Both the position numbers and the translations under genes were made by a program. A stretch of DNA of 64,000 nucleotides from Roseimaritima multifibrata (GTDB lineage Bacteria; Planctomycetota; Planctomycetia; Pirellulales; Pirellulaceae). The stretch covers positions 620,001 through 684,000 of the forward strand of contig NZ_CP036262.1 in NCBI RefSeq assembly GCF_007741495.1, written 5' to 3'. Below, piece after piece: positions 49,653 through 63,147 of the stretch. The notes below the pieces were generated by a model. That model ran no database searches, was not told the DNA's origin, and worked only from the letters and a program-made list of their open reading frames with translations. The number at the start of each line of letters is the position of its first letter. Positions within the stretch are counted from its first letter, which is position 1.

Positions 49653-50078
49653 ATGCTGGTTCTGACTGTTTCGGTTCGATCATTGGAGGGTAGCAAAATG
49701 ATCTCGCCTTCTGAAACCGCTTTTGCAAAGGGCGACAAAACGAGATCCGTTCTGATGCCGAAATCAGTGTGGGAATCTCTGATGGCTCTTCGTGATGATG
49801 CACCATTAGATGCACCCGTTTTTAGCAGCCGCAAGAAGGGACATCTCTGCGAGTCAGCCGTTTGGCGAGTTGTAAAAACGGCGACGAAACGTGCTGGGAT
49901 TCCAAAGGAAGTAAGTTGCCATTGGTTTCGTCATGCACATGCGAGTCATGCCTAGGATCGTGGTGCTCCGATTCACTTGGTTCAGGCAACGCTAGGTCAT
50001 AGCAGCGTTGCGACAACTGGAAAATATTTGCACGCACGGCCATCAGATTCCAGCGGCAATTACCTTCCGCTCGGTTAA
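49653..50078 (+). pseudogene. Truncated tyrosine recombinase with an in-frame stop
   Basis: This is the C-terminal catalytic half of a phage-integrase-type recombinase. It reads KGDKTRSVLMPKSVWESLMA, then VSCHWFRHAHASHA (HxxR), then a TAG at 49953-49955. After it, in the same frame, come DRGAPIHLVQATLGHSSVAT (LGH) and TGKYLHARPSDSS with the nucleophile Tyr. Restoring the stop would give a coherent fold, so a single base change probably created it (for example TTG to TAG). The N-terminal half is absent. The stop at 50076-50078 is followed by CACTCGCT, the motif shared by the genes after it. Confidence 0.85.
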
Positions 50079-50803: not shown

Positions 50804-51487
50804 TTAGGTAGTTGCGAGTTGCTTCTGCTCACGACGGCGGCGACGAGCGGTACCGACACAGGCGACACAAGCACCGATGCCGAACAAAGCGAGGGATGAG
50901 GGTTCAGGAACGGCTGCGGTAGATAAACGCAGGTTTGGTCCCAACGCTCCAATTATTCCTGTTGTTCCTGTACCTGTACCTGTGAAATTTGGCATAGTTA
51001 ACGTAAGCCCATTACCGAAGTGCTGAATGGGAACACCAAAGACAATCCCACTAATAGTGGTCGCTGTTGCGGGGAACCGGAGGAGGTCACCGCCGGTCGA
51101 ATTGGGTTGTACACCACCGATTACATAATCACCCAAACCTAAGTTTAGAGTCGCTATATCCGTTATCAACCAATTTCCGAATCCGCTGGTTGACGGTTCG
51201 ATGGTTGATCCGTTCGAAACGAAGGTAGAAGCAAGCAGAGAGCCACCTCCTGTCCACAGCCCAACTTCATGAGGGCTGTTTAATCCATCCCCCCCCTCGT
51301 CCCACCAGGCCAATCCATCCACCGCTACCGGGGCAGTGACCGAGAATGTGAACCCGACGGTGTAGTCACCGGCGCCAAACATTGTTGAGCCTCCGGCGAA
51401 ATCAAGGATGACCCCCGCCTGCACCTGCCCCGCCGTGGCGATCAGCACCGTCACGCACGCCACCGCCAATTGAATTGTTCGCATCAT
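50804..51487 (-). CDS. PEP-CTERM-sorted exported protein
   Basis: The ATG pair at 51487/51484 is preceded by GGAG at seven bases. The 227-residue protein has a signal peptide (LAVACVTVLIATAGQVQAGV) and a beta-rich body (YTVGFTFSVTAPVAVDGLAW, LSTAAVPEPSS). The C-terminus is a PEP-CTERM signal: VPEPSSLALFGIGACVACVG, then the basic tail ARRRRREQK. Such proteins are cleaved by exosortase and anchored or released at the cell surface. It points opposite to the cassette-like genes on either side of it, which is unusual for a cassette array. The function of the body is unknown. Confidence 0.85.
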   Translation of the reverse strand: MMRTIQLAVACVTVLIATAGQVQAGVILDFAGGSTMFGAGDYTVGFTFSVTAPVAVDGLAWWDEGGDGLNSPHEVGLWTGGGSLLASTFVSNGSTIEPSTSGFGNWLITDIATLNLGLGDYVIGGVQPNSTGGDLLRFPATATTISGIVFGVPIQHFGNGLTLTMPNFTGTGTGTTGIIGALGPNLRLSTAAVPEPSSLALFGIGACVACVGTARRRRREQKQLATT

Positions 51488-51573
51488 CTCGCTTCTCCTT
51501 GTTGTAGGTCTAGGAAGTTGGCCCGCTCCAGATCCGGCACCGGTGGCGTCCCCTCCTGGGGAGGTACTCTGCC

Positions 51574-51765
51574 ATGCGGTGGGGTGGGGGTAAGCGTCCA
51601 ACCGGAAAAATCCGCAAAATCTTCCAGCCCTGCGAAACTGTCCCAACAGCAGAGAAAAGTGTAGAGACTCTAGCCGAGGAGTCCGCAACGAAGCTACAGC
51701 ACTGCGAGGCACTGCCCGATGAAGGCGTTCTCCCAACCGAGTTTGAGCACGTCGATGTCGAGTAA
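51574..51765 (+). CDS. Hypothetical short gene ending at the attC-like site
   Basis: The 63-residue frame ends EFEHVDVE and its TAA is the first triplet of the TAACACCCGCT element at 51763. The last 45 residues (VPTAEKSVETLAEESATKLQ onward) look like a coding segment, but the start is uncertain and overlaps the upstream region of the PEP-CTERM gene. It may be the tail of a gene truncated by insertion of that gene. No family is recognised. Confidence 0.4.
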   Translation: MRWGGGKRPTGKIRKIFQPCETVPTAEKSVETLAEESATKLQHCEALPDEGVLPTEFEHVDVE

Positions 51766-51829
51766 CACCCGCTGGTGAATCATCAGAGCCGACAACACTG
51801 GCCGCAACAGCATTCACAAGCGAGTTAGA
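51763..51829 (+). repeat. Integron attC-like site
   Basis: TAAC (51763) pairs with GTTA (51824-51827). CGCT (51770-51773 region) pairs with AGCG (51820-51822 region), and GTGAAT pairs with ATTCAC (51812-51817), leaving a 31-base variable centre. The 3' end GTTAGAT fits GTTRRRY. The first TAA is the stop codon of the gene before, and the next gene starts seven bases after the site. This is how attC sites sit in integron arrays. Confidence 0.65.
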
Positions 51830-54939: not shown

Positions 54940-55140
54940 CTATTGATCTGATCGCTTATCGTGACACTGTTCACCCGTCTTTTCCGGGCTTTTGCAAGAC
55001 ACGACTCGTCGTTGGCTTACATCGTCCTGAGCCATAAGCAACTCAGACAAAACGCTGCCATAACGTTTAGCTACAGGGGCAGTACGATTACGTATGCCCT
55101 CACCAGCAAGAATACGAATAACTTGGTTTCCATTACTCAT
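54940..55140 (-). CDS. Small protein translationally coupled to the membrane GAF protein
   Basis: The ATG at 55140 overlaps the stop of the upstream gene by four bases (ATGA). The 66-residue protein reads MSNGNQVIRILAGEGIRNRT then APVAKRYGSVLSELLMAQDD. It has no signal or membrane segment and no family I recognise. The overlap is the main evidence for translation. A role together with the membrane GAF protein is an inference from coupling. Confidence 0.55.
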   Translation of the reverse strand: MSNGNQVIRILAGEGIRNRTAPVAKRYGSVLSELLMAQDDVSQRRVVSCKSPEKTGEQCHDKRSDQ

Positions 55141-56003
55141 TTAGCTTTTCCACGTTTTTGCATCCTCGAATCCGCATCAGCAACAACAGCAAGCACGGTA
55201 CCAAGATAGTCCGAGAACGCTTTCATTGAAAGCGTATCGGGGCCGGAAAACCTTCTCTTTAGCGAACTAACGTACAAAATACCGACAGTTTGCTTTTGCT
55301 TTCTATCCACTACGTTAACCGGTGCGACCATCAAAAACTTTACATCCGGCAGCCCATCTGTCTTCGTTGGATGCCATATTTCATCTTCGATCGCGGTCGG
55401 TATATCGGGGATCAGGAAGACGCCCTGAGCGTCCTTCTCCCTAATTGCCTTTGCTAAACCTGCGCTGACGGGAACCGGTTCCGAGTTAGTCTTTCGGGAT
55501 TTTTCAAATCCTGTTGACCTCGCCACGGTCGTGAAATTCTCGCCACTTTGGTCAAGTAATCGCAGCGCGCACCGAGTCGAGTCATCCGCAAACTGGTGCC
55601 GATATATTGCCGCAATTTGGTTTACAAATTCATTTAGAACTCGCTGCAACGCGTCACCGCGAGCTCTTTTGGACGCTTTGACATCCGTCAAATTCGGCAG
55701 TTCATCTCGAAACTCGTGGCAAATCGCATGTAAGCGTTCGCTGCATCGAATGTAACGAAGGAAGAAGATGCGAGTAATCCATAGGCACGCAATTAAGCCT
55801 GCCCCCACCAGTACGATTGTTAGGGCCGCATGCCAATTCATCCATTTCAATGCCGCAGCGGCAAAAATCAACTTACCAGAAAATAAGCTGAACAATCCAC
55901 GGTAGCGAGTGAGCATACCCACTAAACCCGCGATCCAGGTCTTGTCAGGATCAATAGTTCGAACATGCTGGGGGCGCTTACTTGGTTTAGGCTGCGGCCA
56001 CAC
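55137..56003 (-). CDS. Membrane protein with two helices and a GAF-like sensor domain
   Basis: A GTG at 56003 with a strong AGGAGG five bases upstream is preferred over the longer open frame. The 288-residue protein has two membrane helices (GKLIFAAAALKW and HAALTIVLVGAGLIACLWIT, about residues 43-78). A cytoplasmic helix follows (QRVLNEFVNQIAAIYRHQFA), and then a GAF-like fold: CALRLLDQSGENFTTVARST, GLAKAIREKDAQGVFLIPDI and FLMVAPVNVVDRKQKQTVG with ILYVSS. No output domain such as kinase or cyclase is seen. It lies divergent to the type I restriction operon, with a 4-base overlap to the small gene downstream. Sensing of a small ligand is inferred from the GAF resemblance. Confidence 0.75.
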   Translation of the reverse strand: MWPQPKPSKRPQHVRTIDPDKTWIAGLVGMLTRYRGLFSLFSGKLIFAAAALKWMNWHAALTIVLVGAGLIACLWITRIFFLRYIRCSERLHAICHEFRDELPNLTDVKASKRARGDALQRVLNEFVNQIAAIYRHQFADDSTRCALRLLDQSGENFTTVARSTGFEKSRKTNSEPVPVSAGLAKAIREKDAQGVFLIPDIPTAIEDEIWHPTKTDGLPDVKFLMVAPVNVVDRKQKQTVGILYVSSLKRRFSGPDTLSMKAFSDYLGTVLAVVADADSRMQKRGKAK

Positions 56004-56479
56004 GGAAACCTCCTGGCAAATTGAAAAAAAATACACGGGAACAACAAGTCTGAATACACCCCTAGCTCCTGCCTGCCGAAGGAGCAAACCTCCGTTTTCT
56101 CAATTTGCTGCACATATCTGTTTTCGCATAGTTCGCCTTTGACCAATGCCTCCGTTTCAAATTCCAGAGCATGTCAGCGCTCCTTTCGTTGAATTCCACG
56201 TTTCGCCAAGGTGGAGAGGATTTCCACATAGCTCTCTGCGGATAAACCTCCTGAAACATGTCCCTGCAGATTTCGTGACATCGTGTCATCAGAGCCTTTC
56301 CGCTGCCGAACCTGCCACGTACTGCCCGGTAGCTTGGGGGTCCTTTGGGGGGTACCTTATGTGGTCCGGGTGTCTGCCAATTGGCCTTTGGCAGACGTAA
56401 AACAAGACAGATCGTGGGGGCGTCCTACCAGGCACCTCACCTCTGTCCCACCCGGTGTTACCTGGTAGGAACGCACGAA
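56004..56479. other. Divergent intergenic region with a repeat, upstream of hsdR
   Basis: These 476 bp lie between the divergent starts of the GAF protein gene and hsdR, so promoters for both must be here. No clear promoter boxes were picked. The repeat TGACATCGTGTCA is at 56276-56288. Confidence 0.5.
56276..56288 (+). repeat. TGAC-N5-GTCA repeat 5
   Basis: TGACATCGTGTCA, 192 bases upstream of the hsdR start, in the space from which both hsdR and the GAF gene must be transcribed. It could be an operator, but copies inside genes argue for a dispersed repeat. Confidence 0.75.
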
Positions 56480-59400
56480 ATGGCACACCCTGACGCATCC
56501 GCTCCACGTTCGCCCAACTTTCATTTCCTCACAAAAGTCGATCCGCTCTTGGCCGATTTGGGCTTAAGGGCCGAGCGGTATGCGCTAGAAGACCCAGTGA
56601 CGGCCATTATGAAGGTGCGGCAGCTGGGTGAGTTGTTGGCCCAGTCCGTGGCGGCAAAATATGGCATCGACACGACCGTCGATTCGCGTCCCAAGGATCA
56701 ACGTACGCTCCTTGACGAGTTGTTCCGGTCCCGCGCGTTGCCAGCAGACATCAACAACCTCTTTCACGAGATCCGGAAAGAGGGCAACCAAGCCATTCAT
56801 GCAATCAAAGGAGACCAGGGGCGGGCGATCACGGTCCTGCGTTACGCCCGGCAGGCGGCCGTATGGTTTTTTCGAACGCACTTCGACCGTGCGGCTAAGC
56901 TTGGACCGTTTGTGCCGCCACTGCCGAAATCGGACACGTCCGATGAATTGAAACGTGAAATCGCTCGGCTGGAAAAGGAGTACGAAAATGCTTCGGCCGC
57001 TCTGGAGCGTTTGAAAGACCAAGCTGCGGACGAACAGCAATTACGCCAGCTAGCCGAGGATGACCGCAAGCGAGCCTTTCAGGATCTCGATGCCGCGATG
57101 TCACTCGTTGAAGAGGAATTCTCGGCTACGCAGGCACGGATCACGGAACTGGAGAACCGACTGGCCGAGACTTCTCAGACAGCCAAGCCGACTCAGTCTG
57201 AAACCCAACAGATGGTCGAAACCGGCCAGCAAGTGGCCGACGAAGTGCTCTCGGAGGCAGACACTCGAGAGCTGATCGACATTCAACTACGAGAGGCCGG
57301 TTGGATCGTTGATTCCAAAAACCTTCGCTACAGCAAAGGAACACGCCCGCAAAAGAATAAAAACACCGCCATCGCGGAGTGGCCCACGTCCAGCGGCCCG
57401 GCGGACTACGTGCTGTTCATCGGTTTGGCCCCAGTCGCCATCGTCGAAGCGAAACGGAAAAACATCGACGTTGCTGGCGCTATCGCTCAAGCCAGACGAT
57501 ACAGCGGGGACTTCGTCATTCAGGGCACTGACATCGTGTCACCTGGCGGACCTTGGGGAGACTGTAAAGTCCCATTCCTGTTCTCGACGAACGGGCGTGG
57601 CTATCTGAAACAACTCAAAACCAAGAGTGGCGTCTGGTTCCTCGATTCACGACGCTCCACCAATCTCCCGCGTCCATTGGTCAGTTGGTACACCCCGGAG
57701 GGTTTGGGGCAACTGCTCTCTCAGGACATCGACGAAGCCGAGCAACGGCTGCAGGTGGAATCTACCGGGTACCTTCCGCTTCGCTTCTACCAAGAAGAGG
57801 CCGTCAAGGCAGTCGAGAGGGCCATTTCCGACGGCGAACGAGAAATGCTGCTCGCGATGGCAACCGGTACGGGCAAAACGAGGACGTGCATAGGCATCTG
57901 CTATCGACTGATCAAAGCCAAGCGTTTTCGACGAATCCTGTTTCTTGTCGACCGAACCAGCCTGGGCGAACAAACGTCCGACGCGCTCCATGATCTGCGC
58001 ATAGAGAACAATCAGACATTCGCGGACATCTACGACGTGAAGGAACTGGGGGACCTAACCCCCGACCAAGACACCAAATTCCATATCGCCACTATCCAAG
58101 CGATGGTCAAACGGGTCTTGGGATCTGATGACACGGTGTCAGCTTTACCAGTGGACCAATACGACTGCATCGTCGTTGACGAATGCCACCGGGGCTATAG
58201 CCTCGATCAGGAACTAAGCGACAGCGAACTCGGCTTCCGTGACGAAACGGACTACATCTCGAAGTACTCCCGTATCCTTGAGTACTTCGATGCCGTCAAA
58301 ATCGGGCTGACGGCGACCCCGGCTGTCCACACGACCGAAATCTTCGGTGGCACCAGCGGCATGCCGATCTACCAATACAGCTATCGACAAGCGGTTCTCG
58401 ATGGCTATCTGGTGGATCACGAACCACCGCTGCAGATCAAAACCAGGTTGGCGCAGGATGGCATTCAGTTCCAAGTCAACGAAGAGGTCGCCGTCTATGA
58501 CAACCAAAAACAGCAGCTTGAACTATTCAATACCCCCGATGAAATCGTCCTAGAAATCGACAGTTTCAATCGCAAAGTCGTCAACGAGAACTTCAACCGG
58601 GTGATCTGTAGGGAACTTGCCAAGCACATCGACCCCAGCTTGCCTGGAAAAACGCTTGTCTTCTGCGTTAGCGACATGCATGCAGATATGGTCGTTTCGG
58701 AACTGAATGCTGCTTTCAAGGAGCAGTATGGCGAAATTGAAAACCAAGCTGTTTTAAAGATCACCGGCAAGGCCCATAAACCGCTCCAGTTGATCCGCCG
58801 GTTCAAAAACGAACGGTATCCAAGTGTCGTCGTGACAGTCGATTTGCTGACCACCGGGATCGACGTTCCCGAGATTTGCAATCTTGTCTTCCTACGACGC
58901 GTCCGGAGTCGTATTCTCTACGACCAAATGCTCGGACGAGGCACAAGGCTTTGCTCTAGCCTTCACGGGCTCAACGATGATAAATCCTGCTTTCATATCT
59001 TCGACTGCGTCGAACTCTATTCGTCGCTGAAGTCTTACACCGATATGCAGGCAGTCGTCACGAATCCCAACATATCGTTCAGCCAACTGCTGGACGAACT
59101 GGCCAGCGTCACCACTGACGAGCATCGTCAAACCATTAAAGAACAATTGATCGCCAAACTTCAACGAAAAAAACGGTCCCTGAAAGGCAGCAGGGCGCAG
59201 GTTTTAGAAGAAAAATCGGGCAAGAACCCCGAATCGTTGATCGAGCAGATTCAAAAGGCAACGCCCGATGAAATCGTGGAATGGTTTGCCGACAAAACCA
59301 ACGTGGTCGAATTCCTCGACCAGAAGGCAGGCGGGGGCGGTACCCGTTTCTTCGTTTCCGAGCACGAAGATGAAGTCGTGTCAGTCGAATCAGGCTTCGG

Positions 59401-59920
59401 CAAAGGCAACCAGCGGCCCAAAGACTACCTGGAAGAGTTTCGCGAATTCGTCACGGGGCACCAAAATGACATCGCGGCAATCAAGCTGTGTGCGACCCGC
59501 CCCAGGGACCTGACACGGCAAACCCTCAAAGAACTGCAGATCGAACTCGACAAGCAGGGTTTCAGCGAAACGCGTTTACGGGTTGCCTGGCGAGAAACCA
59601 AAAATGTCGAAATTGCCGCGACGATCATCGGCTACATCCGAAACGCGATTCTTCAGGCCCCGCTGGAGCCCTTCGAAGATCGTGTCAACAAAGCCATGAC
59701 CGCGTTGCTGACATCGCGTCAGTGGACTCAGCCGCAACGAAAATGGCTCGATCGGATCGGCAAGCAGTTCAAAGAGAACACGCTTGTAGACCGAGACGCA
59801 TTCAATCAAGGGCAATTCAGAGAACACGGGGGCTTTGATCGCCTGAACAAGGTTTTCGACGGTAAACTCGTCGAATTACTCGGCCAGATCACCGATGAGA
59901 TCTGGGGGCTTGCTGCCTAG
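56480..59920 (+). CDS. hsdR: Type I restriction endonuclease subunit R
   Basis: The ATG at 56480 follows a AGGA ribosome site and gives 1146 residues. A DUF4145-like N-terminal region (about 20-140) leads into a coiled coil (about 155-230). The nuclease domain has D309 and E323-A-K325 (ADYVLFIGLAPVAIVEAKRK). Helicase motifs are Walker A ATGTGKT at 461-467, DECH at 567-570, GLTATP and LGRGTRL. It cuts DNA after ATP-driven translocation in complex with HsdM and HsdS. It contains three TGAC-N5-GTCA repeats (57529, 58129, 59709) without loss of frame. It is the first gene of the operon. Confidence 0.96.
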   Translation: MAHPDASAPRSPNFHFLTKVDPLLADLGLRAERYALEDPVTAIMKVRQLGELLAQSVAAKYGIDTTVDSRPKDQRTLLDELFRSRALPADINNLFHEIRKEGNQAIHAIKGDQGRAITVLRYARQAAVWFFRTHFDRAAKLGPFVPPLPKSDTSDELKREIARLEKEYENASAALERLKDQAADEQQLRQLAEDDRKRAFQDLDAAMSLVEEEFSATQARITELENRLAETSQTAKPTQSETQQMVETGQQVADEVLSEADTRELIDIQLREAGWIVDSKNLRYSKGTRPQKNKNTAIAEWPTSSGPADYVLFIGLAPVAIVEAKRKNIDVAGAIAQARRYSGDFVIQGTDIVSPGGPWGDCKVPFLFSTNGRGYLKQLKTKSGVWFLDSRRSTNLPRPLVSWYTPEGLGQLLSQDIDEAEQRLQVESTGYLPLRFYQEEAVKAVERAISDGEREMLLAMATGTGKTRTCIGICYRLIKAKRFRRILFLVDRTSLGEQTSDALHDLRIENNQTFADIYDVKELGDLTPDQDTKFHIATIQAMVKRVLGSDDTVSALPVDQYDCIVVDECHRGYSLDQELSDSELGFRDETDYISKYSRILEYFDAVKIGLTATPAVHTTEIFGGTSGMPIYQYSYRQAVLDGYLVDHEPPLQIKTRLAQDGIQFQVNEEVAVYDNQKQQLELFNTPDEIVLEIDSFNRKVVNENFNRVICRELAKHIDPSLPGKTLVFCVSDMHADMVVSELNAAFKEQYGEIENQAVLKITGKAHKPLQLIRRFKNERYPSVVVTVDLLTTGIDVPEICNLVFLRRVRSRILYDQMLGRGTRLCSSLHGLNDDKSCFHIFDCVELYSSLKSYTDMQAVVTNPNISFSQLLDELASVTTDEHRQTIKEQLIAKLQRKKRSLKGSRAQVLEEKSGKNPESLIEQIQKATPDEIVEWFADKTNVVEFLDQKAGGGGTRFFVSEHEDEVVSVESGFGKGNQRPKDYLEEFREFVTGHQNDIAAIKLCATRPRDLTRQTLKELQIELDKQGFSETRLRVAWRETKNVEIAATIIGYIRNAILQAPLEPFEDRVNKAMTALLTSRQWTQPQRKWLDRIGKQFKENTLVDRDAFNQGQFREHGGFDRLNKVFDGKLVELLGQITDEIWGLAA
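57529..57541 (+). repeat. TGAC-N5-GTCA repeat 6
   Basis: TGACATCGTGTCA inside hsdR, coding for part of GTDIVSP. Confidence 0.75.
58129..58141 (+). repeat. TGAC-N5-GTCA repeat 7
   Basis: TGACACGGTGTCA inside hsdR, coding for part of SDDTVSA just before the DECH motif. Confidence 0.75.
59709..59721 (+). repeat. TGAC-N5-GTCA repeat 8
   Basis: TGACATCGCGTCA inside the 3' part of hsdR, coding for part of LLTSRQW. The coding residues LTSRQ match those encoded by copy 1. Confidence 0.75.
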
Positions 59921-59984: not shown

Positions 59985-61460
59985 ATGAATACCCAAGAAA
60001 TTGTCGCCAAGCTCTGGAGCATGTGCCACGTCCTCCGCGACGATGGCATCACCTATCAGGCCTACGTCACCGAACTGACGTACCTGCTGTTTTTGAAAAT
60101 GATGAAGGAGACTGGCCAGGAAAGCCAACTTCCCAGTGGTTATCGCTGGGACGACCTCCACAGTCGCGAAGGGGTCGAGCAACTGAACTTCTACCGTGAA
60201 CTGTTGGTTCATCTTGGCACTCAGCCCACCGGACGTGTTCAGGCCATCTTCAACAATGCCAACTCGTCACTGAAGAAGCCCAAGAACCTTCTTAAACTTG
60301 TCACCGACATCGATGCATTGGATTGGTACAGCGCCCGAACCGAGGGACTGGGCGACCTGTACGAAGGATTGCTGGAAAAGAACGCCAGCGAGAAGAAATC
60401 GGGCGCAGGCCAGTACTTCACGCCGCGGCCCCTGATCGAGTGCATGGTCAACTGCATCAAACCTCAGCCGGGCGAGATCATTCAGGATCCGGCGGCCGGC
60501 ACTGGCGGCTTCTTGACTCACGCGGACCGCTACATCAAAGCGAACACCGACGACCTGTTTGACCTGGACGAGCAGCAGCAGCATTTCCAGAAGCACGACG
60601 CGTATCACGCCGTCGAACTGGTCGACGACACTCAGCGTCTGTTCCTAATGAACGTCATGTTGCATGGCATGGATGGGAACTACGTCTCCGGCGACACCAT
60701 GGGCTCGGCCGGTCAGCAACTCCCTGACGCCGACCTGATCCTCTCGAACCCTCCTTTCGGCACCAAGAAAGGTGGTGGGATCACGCGAGACGACTTCACC
60801 TACCCGACCAGCAACAAACAACTCTGCTTCCTCCAGCATATCTATCGCGGTCTAAAGCCGGGAGGTCGTGCGGCAGTCGTCCTGCCGGACAACGTGCTGT
60901 TCGAGGAAGGCGTGGGCACGAGAATCCGCGTTGACCTGATGGACAAATGCAACCTGCACACAATCCTTCGGCTCCCGACCGGCATTTTTTACGCGCAGGG
61001 CGTGAAGACGAACGTGCTGTTCTTCACACGGGGCCAAACCGACACTGGCAACACGAAGAAAACCTGGATCTATGACCTGCGGACTAACGTCCCCGTCTTC
61101 GGCAAGCGGACACCCCTGACACTGGGTCACTTCACCGAGTTCGAGAAGTGCTACGGCAAGAAAGCGGACGGCAGCAGCAAGCGAACCGAGAAGACCGGCG
61201 GAAAGAAAATTTGCCCCGCCATCAATAAAGACGACACGATCGACGAAGGCGAAAACAGTCGTTTTCGACTCTTCACGCGAGACTTCGTGCGAGAACGAGG
61301 CGACAACTTGGACATCAGTTGGCTGAAGGACGACAGCGGCGGCGGTTCGGGCGATGAGCTTGCCGAGCCAGCCGAGATCGCAGCAATGATCCGCGAACGC
61401 CTGAGCGGGGCGCTCGCCGAGATGGACGCCCTGACCGAACTGTTGGAGCCAACCAAATGA
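59985..61460 (+). CDS. hsdM: Type I restriction-modification DNA methyltransferase subunit
   Basis: This 491-residue protein has an N-terminal HsdM helical domain (AKLWSMCHVLRDDGITYQAY, LTYLLFLKMM). The methyltransferase fold has the SAM motif DPAAGTGGFL at 168-177 and the catalytic motif NPPFG at 255-259 (N6-adenine type), preceded by the conserved GAGQYFTPRPLIE. It methylates adenine in the bipartite site chosen by HsdS and forms part of both methylase and nuclease complexes. The frame starts 64 bases after hsdR, and hsdS follows after 103 bases. Confidence 0.96.
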   Translation: MNTQEIVAKLWSMCHVLRDDGITYQAYVTELTYLLFLKMMKETGQESQLPSGYRWDDLHSREGVEQLNFYRELLVHLGTQPTGRVQAIFNNANSSLKKPKNLLKLVTDIDALDWYSARTEGLGDLYEGLLEKNASEKKSGAGQYFTPRPLIECMVNCIKPQPGEIIQDPAAGTGGFLTHADRYIKANTDDLFDLDEQQQHFQKHDAYHAVELVDDTQRLFLMNVMLHGMDGNYVSGDTMGSAGQQLPDADLILSNPPFGTKKGGGITRDDFTYPTSNKQLCFLQHIYRGLKPGGRAAVVLPDNVLFEEGVGTRIRVDLMDKCNLHTILRLPTGIFYAQGVKTNVLFFTRGQTDTGNTKKTWIYDLRTNVPVFGKRTPLTLGHFTEFEKCYGKKADGSSKRTEKTGGKKICPAINKDDTIDEGENSRFRLFTRDFVRERGDNLDISWLKDDSGGGSGDELAEPAEIAAMIRERLSGALAEMDALTELLEPTK

Positions 61461-61563
61461 GCCAACCACATTCCCTTAGCCCTCCCCTTGAACTGCAGGT
61501 CGCTAGCCGCCTGTACACCCCTGTTTGCCAACCCTCAAACCTACCGACAATATGGGGGCGAGA

Positions 61564-63147
61564 ATGAGCCACCTGAATGATGAAGTATTGTCACCAAGCA
61601 ATTCGGTCGAGGTCGCACGAAACGGCGCTAAGGGTGCCAGTGGAGATGCGTTGCCGGATGGCTGGGAGTGGGCGACATTGAAAGAGATCGTTAAGTCGAT
61701 CACGTATGGCCATACCGCGTCGGCCTGCCATGAGCCAGTCGGCCCTCGTTTCTTGCGAATCACAGACATTCAGGGTGGTGGAGTTGACTGGAGCTCTGTG
61801 CCCTACTGCGAATGTGACGAGGTTAAAAAGTACGGGTTAAAGAACGGTGACATTGTGATCGCCCGAACAGGAGCTACGACAGGAAAGAATTTTCTTATTG
61901 GCGACCTCGGCGAACCGAGTGTTTTTGCCTCCTACCTGATTCGTCTTGAGACATTGGAAGATTTCTCAGCGGAGTTTCTCAGCAAATTCATGCAGACGCC
62001 GTACTATTGGCAACAAATAACGACGGTCAGCAAAGGGTCTGCTCAACCTGGCGCGAATGCGACAATCCTCTCTAAGTTAGCGATTCCCGTTGCCCCTCTC
62101 GCCGAACAGTCACGGATCGTATCGGCGATCGAGTCGCTTCAATCGCGTAGTTCGCGAGCTCGGGAATTGCTTTCGGAAGTCGGGCCGCTGATCGGTCAGC
62201 TTCGTCAGAGTGTGCTGCGAGATGCTTTCAGTGGGAAGCTGACTGCCGACTGGCGGCGGCAGAATCCCGCCCCCTCCGGTGAAACGGCCCGCGAACTTCT
62301 CCTCCGCATCCGCACCGAGCGAAAAGAACGCTGGCAATCCGAGCAGCTAGCCAAGTACGAAGCCAAAGGCAAACAGCCCCCCAAAAACTGGCAGGACAAG
62401 TACAAAGAACCCGATCCAGTAGATGAGTCAGATCTGCCTGAACTGCCGGACGGTTGGTGCTGGGCGCGGTTTGAAGAAGTCCTCGAAGAACTACGTAATG
62501 GTCTGTCACCCAAGCCAAAAGAAACTCCGCCGGGGATTCCAATCCTCCGTATCAACAGCGTCCGGGCAAGAACCGTCACGCTCGATGAAGTCCGGTACCT
62601 CGACGGAGCGGAGGAATCACTCCCAGTGTACCGACTTCGGGACGGGGACCTGCTTTTCACCCGTTACAACGGAAGCATCGACTTGCTCGGAGTCTGCGGG
62701 ATGGTGCGCGACCTAAACGAAAAAGAACTGCTCTATCCGGACAAACTTATGCGGGTGCGATTTGGACACGATCTAATCCTGCCTGAGTTCATCGAGCTTT
62801 ATTTCGCGGCTCCCGATGCCCGCAACCGAGTTACCGAAAAGGCAAAGACTACTTCCGGCCAACAAGGCGTTTCCGGCGGCGACATCAAGGGGCAACCGAT
62901 TGCGATCGCACCAGTTGAGGAACAGCGAGAGGTCGTTCGGCGAGTTTGCGAAATGATGGAACGCATAAACGAGTTGGAGAATGGTTTAGCCTCAATTGAA
63001 TCGTCGCTGACGGAACTGGATCAATCCATCCTCTCGAAAGCGTTCCGCGGCGAGTTGGTCCCGCAGGACCCGAGTGACGAACCGGCCTCCGAACTCCTCG
63101 CCCGCATCCGCAAACAACGCCAAGCCACCAAAACCAAACCCAACTGA
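61564..63147 (+). CDS. hsdS: Type I restriction-modification specificity subunit
   Basis: The ATG at 61564 has GGGGG a few bases upstream; an in-frame TTG at 61525 is less likely. The 527-residue protein has two target-recognition domains. The first begins LPDGWEWATLKEIVKSITYG and the second LPDGWCWARFEEVLEELRNG. The conserved helical spacers follow each: LIGQLRQSVLRDAFSGKL and LTELDQSILSKAFRGELVPQ. The domain order sets the two halves of the recognition site, which cannot be read from the sequence. It is complete, and the operon looks intact. Confidence 0.95.
   Translation: MSHLNDEVLSPSNSVEVARNGAKGASGDALPDGWEWATLKEIVKSITYGHTASACHEPVGPRFLRITDIQGGGVDWSSVPYCECDEVKKYGLKNGDIVIARTGATTGKNFLIGDLGEPSVFASYLIRLETLEDFSAEFLSKFMQTPYYWQQITTVSKGSAQPGANATILSKLAIPVAPLAEQSRIVSAIESLQSRSSRARELLSEVGPLIGQLRQSVLRDAFSGKLTADWRRQNPAPSGETARELLLRIRTERKERWQSEQLAKYEAKGKQPPKNWQDKYKEPDPVDESDLPELPDGWCWARFEEVLEELRNGLSPKPKETPPGIPILRINSVRARTVTLDEVRYLDGAEESLPVYRLRDGDLLFTRYNGSIDLLGVCGMVRDLNEKELLYPDKLMRVRFGHDLILPEFIELYFAAPDARNRVTEKAKTTSGQQGVSGGDIKGQPIAIAPVEEQREVVRRVCEMMERINELENGLASIESSLTELDQSILSKAFRGELVPQDPSDEPASELLARIRKQRQATKTKPN

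Follow-up and report, generated by a model that had tools for sequence, protein, structure and literature searches.

A membrane protein with a C-terminal GAF domain and a small protein encoded next to it form a two-gene unit that recurs among planctomycetes; at the level of the family this pairing is well supported, and to judge by its sequences the unit looks mobile. The window analyzed here, in which the small gene is a weaker member of the family, is a stretch of 64,000 nucleotides from Roseimaritima multifibrata (positions 620001-684000 of a 7.2-Mb single-contig genome). On its minus strand, gene 1 (55137..56003) comprises 288 codons, from a GTG start at 56001-56003, five bases downstream of an AGGAGG ribosome-binding site (cctcct, 56009-56014), to a stop codon ending at 55137. 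The sequence ATGA joins this stop to the ATG of gene 2, a 66-codon ORF on the same strand (54940..55140), resulting in a four-base overlap. Both genes are divergent from an hsdRMS operon, of which hsdR (56480..59920), hsdM (59985..61460), and hsdS (61525..63147) lie on the plus strand. An earlier sequence-only reading had described the same gene pair, its overlap, and its orientation, all of which hold. A 14-base inverted repeat (93%, 56016-56029 / 56095-56108) upstream of gene 1 is a possible operator. No sigma-70-like promoter was found, and terminator-like sites did not exceed chance level.

The product of gene 1 contains two hydrophobic segments, at about residues 36-54 (55842..55898) and 59-82 (55758..55829), both of which are helices in an AlphaFold model and between which hydropathy leaves a loop of about five residues. 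As positive charge is found on both sides of this hairpin, both of its ends should be cytoplasmic, and so short a loop has hardly any room for an outside sensor; input to the protein is probably cytoplasmic. The GAF domain spans about residues 130-280 (55164..55616). Its Pfam match is sub-threshold (E 0.007, 17.3 bits vs a cut-off of 22.4), and the AlphaFold model, which derives from a two-sequence alignment (mean pLDDT 63.5), matches solved GAF domains in Foldseek at E 1e-5 and aligns with a GAF structure in VIA-align at Z 12.1 over 166 residues (rmsd 3.5). In this model, the C-terminal domain is a GAF fold behind a two-helix membrane hairpin, and according to Pfam the protein ends after it with no output domain, an architecture that had been suggested from the letters and is borne out here. 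Just past membrane helix 2, the residues of an H92-x3-H96-x2-R99 motif (55707..55730) are invariant in 8/8 homologous proteins, and the GAF part contributes further residues conserved without exception in 7/7 proteins (T159, R162, S163, G182, P228, G241, and D265); the membrane part itself aligns weakly among homologues. The H-x-x-R element is reminiscent of the H-box of histidine kinases, although Pfam matched neither a HisKA nor a HATPase domain in the protein.

Profile searches of planctomycete genomes yielded five further full-length homologues, one contig-end fragment, and one remote relative. Whereas tblastn against 392 genomes of the phylum returned the window only, and against 241 genomes of the family one true relative (G401, contig SYJV01000425.1 of a Planctomycetaceae MAG), profiles identified G638, G899, and the contig-end fragment G826 among 396 genomes of the order, the remote relative G324 among 392 of the phylum, and G1039 and G1041 among 327 of the class, these genome samples overlapping one another. 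A further 3, 119, and 95 genomes, scanned at the family level, contributed no homologue. In the order, phylum, and class scans, no more than the 6-7 best-ranking candidates of each genome were scored, so that the family probably has more members than counted here. Homologues are rare and patchy, with one copy in each matched genome; plasmid, phage, and viral-contig collections yielded no relative, one search giving only short matches in relaxase genes. Weak tblastn matches among the 241 family genomes (E up to 1) were mostly due to chance, and several candidates were dropped. L003 (E 3.5e-4) looks like a FabI-type reductase; L032 (a 724-residue frame), L036 (a 694-residue frame), and L046-L049 were probably matched through a generic GAF domain, through another domain, or by chance, with L049 reading as a histidine kinase.

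In each of the six full-length loci, hence in 5/5 with the window excluded, and also in the remote G324, the first ORF after the GAF gene is a small one on the same strand. GAF homologues devoid of such a gene were found neither among full-length loci nor in G324, and the two-gene unit proposed in the sequence-only reading is real in this respect. Gaps between the two genes amount to -4, 27, 12, 4, 316, 109, and -4 bases in the seven loci, the four-base overlap being shared by the window and G324. An ORF of at least 60 codons starting within -20 to +30 bases of the GAF stop arises in ~18% of Markov-shuffled downstream sequences at the window locus, and the overlap seen there is therefore weak evidence on its own; it is comparative evidence that carries the pair. 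Five of the seven loci show such close spacing, with a chance expectation of 12-30% at each of these five, which at about 20% per locus corresponds to roughly p 0.005 by our own arithmetic. The remaining two, G1039 (316 bases to a first small ORF and 66 more to a second copy) and G1041 (109 bases, and an ORF of only 49 codons), fall outside these limits, yet display most clearly a 14-residue helix motif.

This motif is common to five of the small proteins and was reached by 0/500 shuffles; at width 10, the same five-protein test gives p 0.05, and leaving out one protein at a time gives p 0.0003, 0.0003, 0.13, 0.005, and 0.03. It reads SREFARAVAxLFSII in G1039, where it occurs in two tandem copies, ADNFGRAAAKYFQIL in G1041, FPSSFAKAVTRIHS in G401, FPQSFADRVSQIES in G638, and VRELFADMRSEISN in G899. 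The window protein holds a weak copy at residues 23-36 (VAKRYGSVLSELLM, 55033..55074, minus strand; p 0.014), and including it in the block test results in p 0.018 at width 14, for which a different stretch of the window protein is picked, and 0.06 at width 10. The motif is absent from the small protein of G324 (p 0.84). A profile built from six small proteins, to which G1039 contributed two, matched only these partner genes in the nine genomes searched (E 0.1 or better), with no further copy, and missed the window's small ORF in its own genome (G000). Codon signal relative to stop-free shuffles is positive for five small ORFs (z 1.2 for the window, then 1.6, 1.5, 2.8, and 2.0), and local pairwise similarity is significant for G401-G638 only (p 0.017, one of 10 pairs). 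For the most part, the small proteins consist of low-complexity or disordered sequence, and they diverge fast. That of the window is predicted, at low confidence, to be disordered over most of its length apart from a single short helix (residues 30-37); it contains no membrane segment and lacks a Pfam match above cut-off. Across the family, the helix is amphipathic (moments 0.97-1.72), and no match to an enzyme or membrane domain was detected.

Two observations point at horizontal movement of the pair. Identity does not track taxonomy, as the window protein is 28% identical to its relative from the same family, no higher than the 24-30% to proteins from other families and orders, and GC3 of the GAF gene is lower than that of every compared neighbor in 7/7 loci (for instance 0.39 vs 0.67-0.70 in G638). 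The island location noted from the sequence alone agrees with a unit sitting on seemingly mobile DNA. A search for terminal repeats of the kind that delimit mobile elements gave no consistent result. At G401, a PALP enzyme is encoded upstream and an ORF that reads as transposase-like downstream, the latter including tandem 18-base repeats (L029 8520-8579). An IS1-like transposase, again by reading, adjoins the unit of G638, where a gene that reads as ComEC-like (L040 14890-15990 / L026 4561-6102) is apparently interrupted by several kilobases with an IS1-like transposase among them. In the window, a tyrosine recombinase fragment (49653-49955; Pfam Phage_integrase E 2e-8) perhaps marks an old island end.

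Three of the six full-length loci adjoin defence genes recognized by PADLOC, namely hsdRMS in the window, YhcG/PDC-S02 at G1041, and AbiEi/AbiEii at G1039. The YhcG-type nuclease lies directly upstream of the G1041 unit on the same strand (Pfam E 7e-64; PADLOC PDC-S02 E 3e-143). G1039 harbors two AbiEi/AbiEii pairs, of which one is complete and the other has a split AbiEii, model positions 3-84 preceding and 127-303 following the GAF unit, with a tyrosine recombinase 0.8 kb further on; the split (L050 5404-9833) is about 3.6 kb wide and holds the GAF unit together with two small genes. No recognized defence gene was found at G401, G638, G899, or the remote G324, with PADLOC applied to one neighbor of G401 and most neighbor functions of G401 and all of G899 read from sequence (in the latter, glycogen-phosphorylase-like and isochorismatase-like genes). 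We did not count as defence a weak HEAT-repeat PADLOC match of the G401 neighbor, nor the generic helix-turn-helix matches of L039:6658-7272 and L026:1514-1981. As controls, we took 18 loci that chance matches had brought in and scanned the longest frame at each; two of these frames have PADLOC matches at E 1e-20, in one case to protein-kinase models. The comparison of 3/6 with 2/18 gives a Fisher p of 0.08, or 0.01 with the two matching controls set aside, in both cases with more neighbors inspected at the targets. The bias towards defence islands that had been anticipated finds partial support, as half of the full-length loci show recognized defence genes and the other three show none, and the difference from controls (p 0.08) is not significant. 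Within PADLOC-DB 2.0.0, the two window proteins matched no family at E 1, and the GAF proteins of G1039 and G1041 none at E 0.01.

We tentatively favor, at less than an even chance, a mobile two-gene planctomycete module in which the GAF protein would act as a membrane effector under the control of a ligand and of its small partner. The gene 1 product would consist of an inner-membrane two-helix hairpin, helices bearing H-x3-H-x2-R, and a cytoplasmic GAF domain that may bind a small cytoplasmic ligand. Gene 2 would provide a small, largely disordered partner whose single amphipathic helix might dock on the juxtamembrane helices or on the GAF domain, keeping the GAF protein off or setting its threshold. 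A changed ligand level or loss of a labile partner, as in phage infection, could then act as trigger, upon which membrane hairpins would assemble and permeabilize the membrane, and the host cell would stop. A more specific version, that of a defence module whose two-helix effector is gated by the GAF domain via the His-His-Arg juxtamembrane helix and ruled by a helix-motif partner replacing a dedicated synthase, watching a host metabolite or second messenger, we hold with low confidence. Several observations speak against the favored reading: the unit showed no gene for a nucleotide synthase, the proteins compared with PADLOC matched none of its families, three full-length loci and G324 are devoid of recognized defence genes, the window's small ORF fits the motif poorly, and the two-helix part aligns weakly among homologues.

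Two membrane helices combined with a ligand-binding domain, S-2TM-beta, CARF, or SAVED, are known from defence effectors (PMC12657218). Panoptes OptE and CBASS Cap15 (both S-2TM-beta) as well as 2TM-CARF and 2TM-SAVED proteins resemble the window pair in joining two membrane helices to a cytoplasmic domain of ligand-binding type within a compact two-gene unit (PMC12657218). The window protein differs in possessing a GAF domain instead of a beta-barrel, CARF, or SAVED domain and an H-x3-H-x2-R helix between membrane and GAF, and its partner is a small helix protein instead of a nucleotide synthase. No mCpol synthase (optS) is coupled to the window effector candidate, whose partner is the 66-aa ORF and whose neighbors are hsdRMS, and no S-2TM-beta nucleotide-binding barrel is present, the C-terminal domain matching GAF. 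With neither synthase nor barrel, the pair is not a member of these systems. If our proposal is true, GAF would be a further ligand gate on two-helix membrane effectors beside CARF, SAVED, and the S-2TM-beta barrel, with a small protein standing where the synthase would be. The pair is small, and its divergent homologue set retains an invariant motif; among the papers listed by literature searches, none was seen to describe a 2TM-GAF unit with a small gene.

An alternative, in our view only slightly less probable, is membrane-anchored signaling of an accessory kind, neither toxic nor defensive, in which the GAF protein would respond to a cytoplasmic ligand and relay its state to a target, with the small protein serving as adaptor. 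The best structural matches are indeed GAF domains of signaling proteins (3k2n, 3ci6, 3trc, 8rvx, and 1mc0), which share the fold at Z 10.9-12.1 and 8-16% identity; the H-x-x-R element recalls a histidine-kinase H-box, and at three of the six loci no defence gene was recognized. GAF domains are usually linked to an output domain. The window protein, unlike such signaling proteins, has none after its GAF domain and carries no kinase domain, and patchy single copies of foreign composition fit cargo genes better than housekeeping signaling.

The sequence-only reading had assigned the roles of sensor to the GAF protein and effector or toxin to the small one, an order we consider doubtful. Translational overlap in the window and G324, two small-gene copies in G1039, and an amphipathic helix that could act on the membrane or a host protein are consistent with it. 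Small proteins that are mostly low-complexity or disordered (at low confidence for the window), quickly diverging, and free of enzyme or membrane domain matches argue against it, as does the lack of a membrane segment in the window's small protein, and since the two-helix hairpin of membrane effectors sits in the GAF protein, the roles may be reversed. Toxin-antitoxin pairs with a membrane toxin consist of adjacent or overlapping genes for one membrane and one small protein at a mobile location. The window pair is alike in each of these respects; it differs in that its sequences match none of the known pairs and its membrane gene comes first, and its membrane protein is at most a putative toxin.

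It is likewise improbable that the window's small ORF arose by chance or is decaying, leaving the GAF gene alone in this genome while the family is paired elsewhere. Its weak motif match, low codon z, the ~18% chance of such an ORF, and the failure of the small-protein profile to retrieve it would be in line with this. The exact ATGA overlap speaks against it, as does a collinear alignment with the small protein of G401 at 32% identity (p 0.02-0.04 against shuffles). That the pair regulates or accompanies hsdRMS would be in line with its adjacent, divergent position and with the inverted repeat upstream of gene 1, yet is very improbable, since none of the other loci showed hsd genes.

Elsewhere in the window, a minus-strand frame (50804-51817) ends in VPEPSSLALFGIGACVACVGTARRRRR, which resembles a PEP-CTERM sorting signal.
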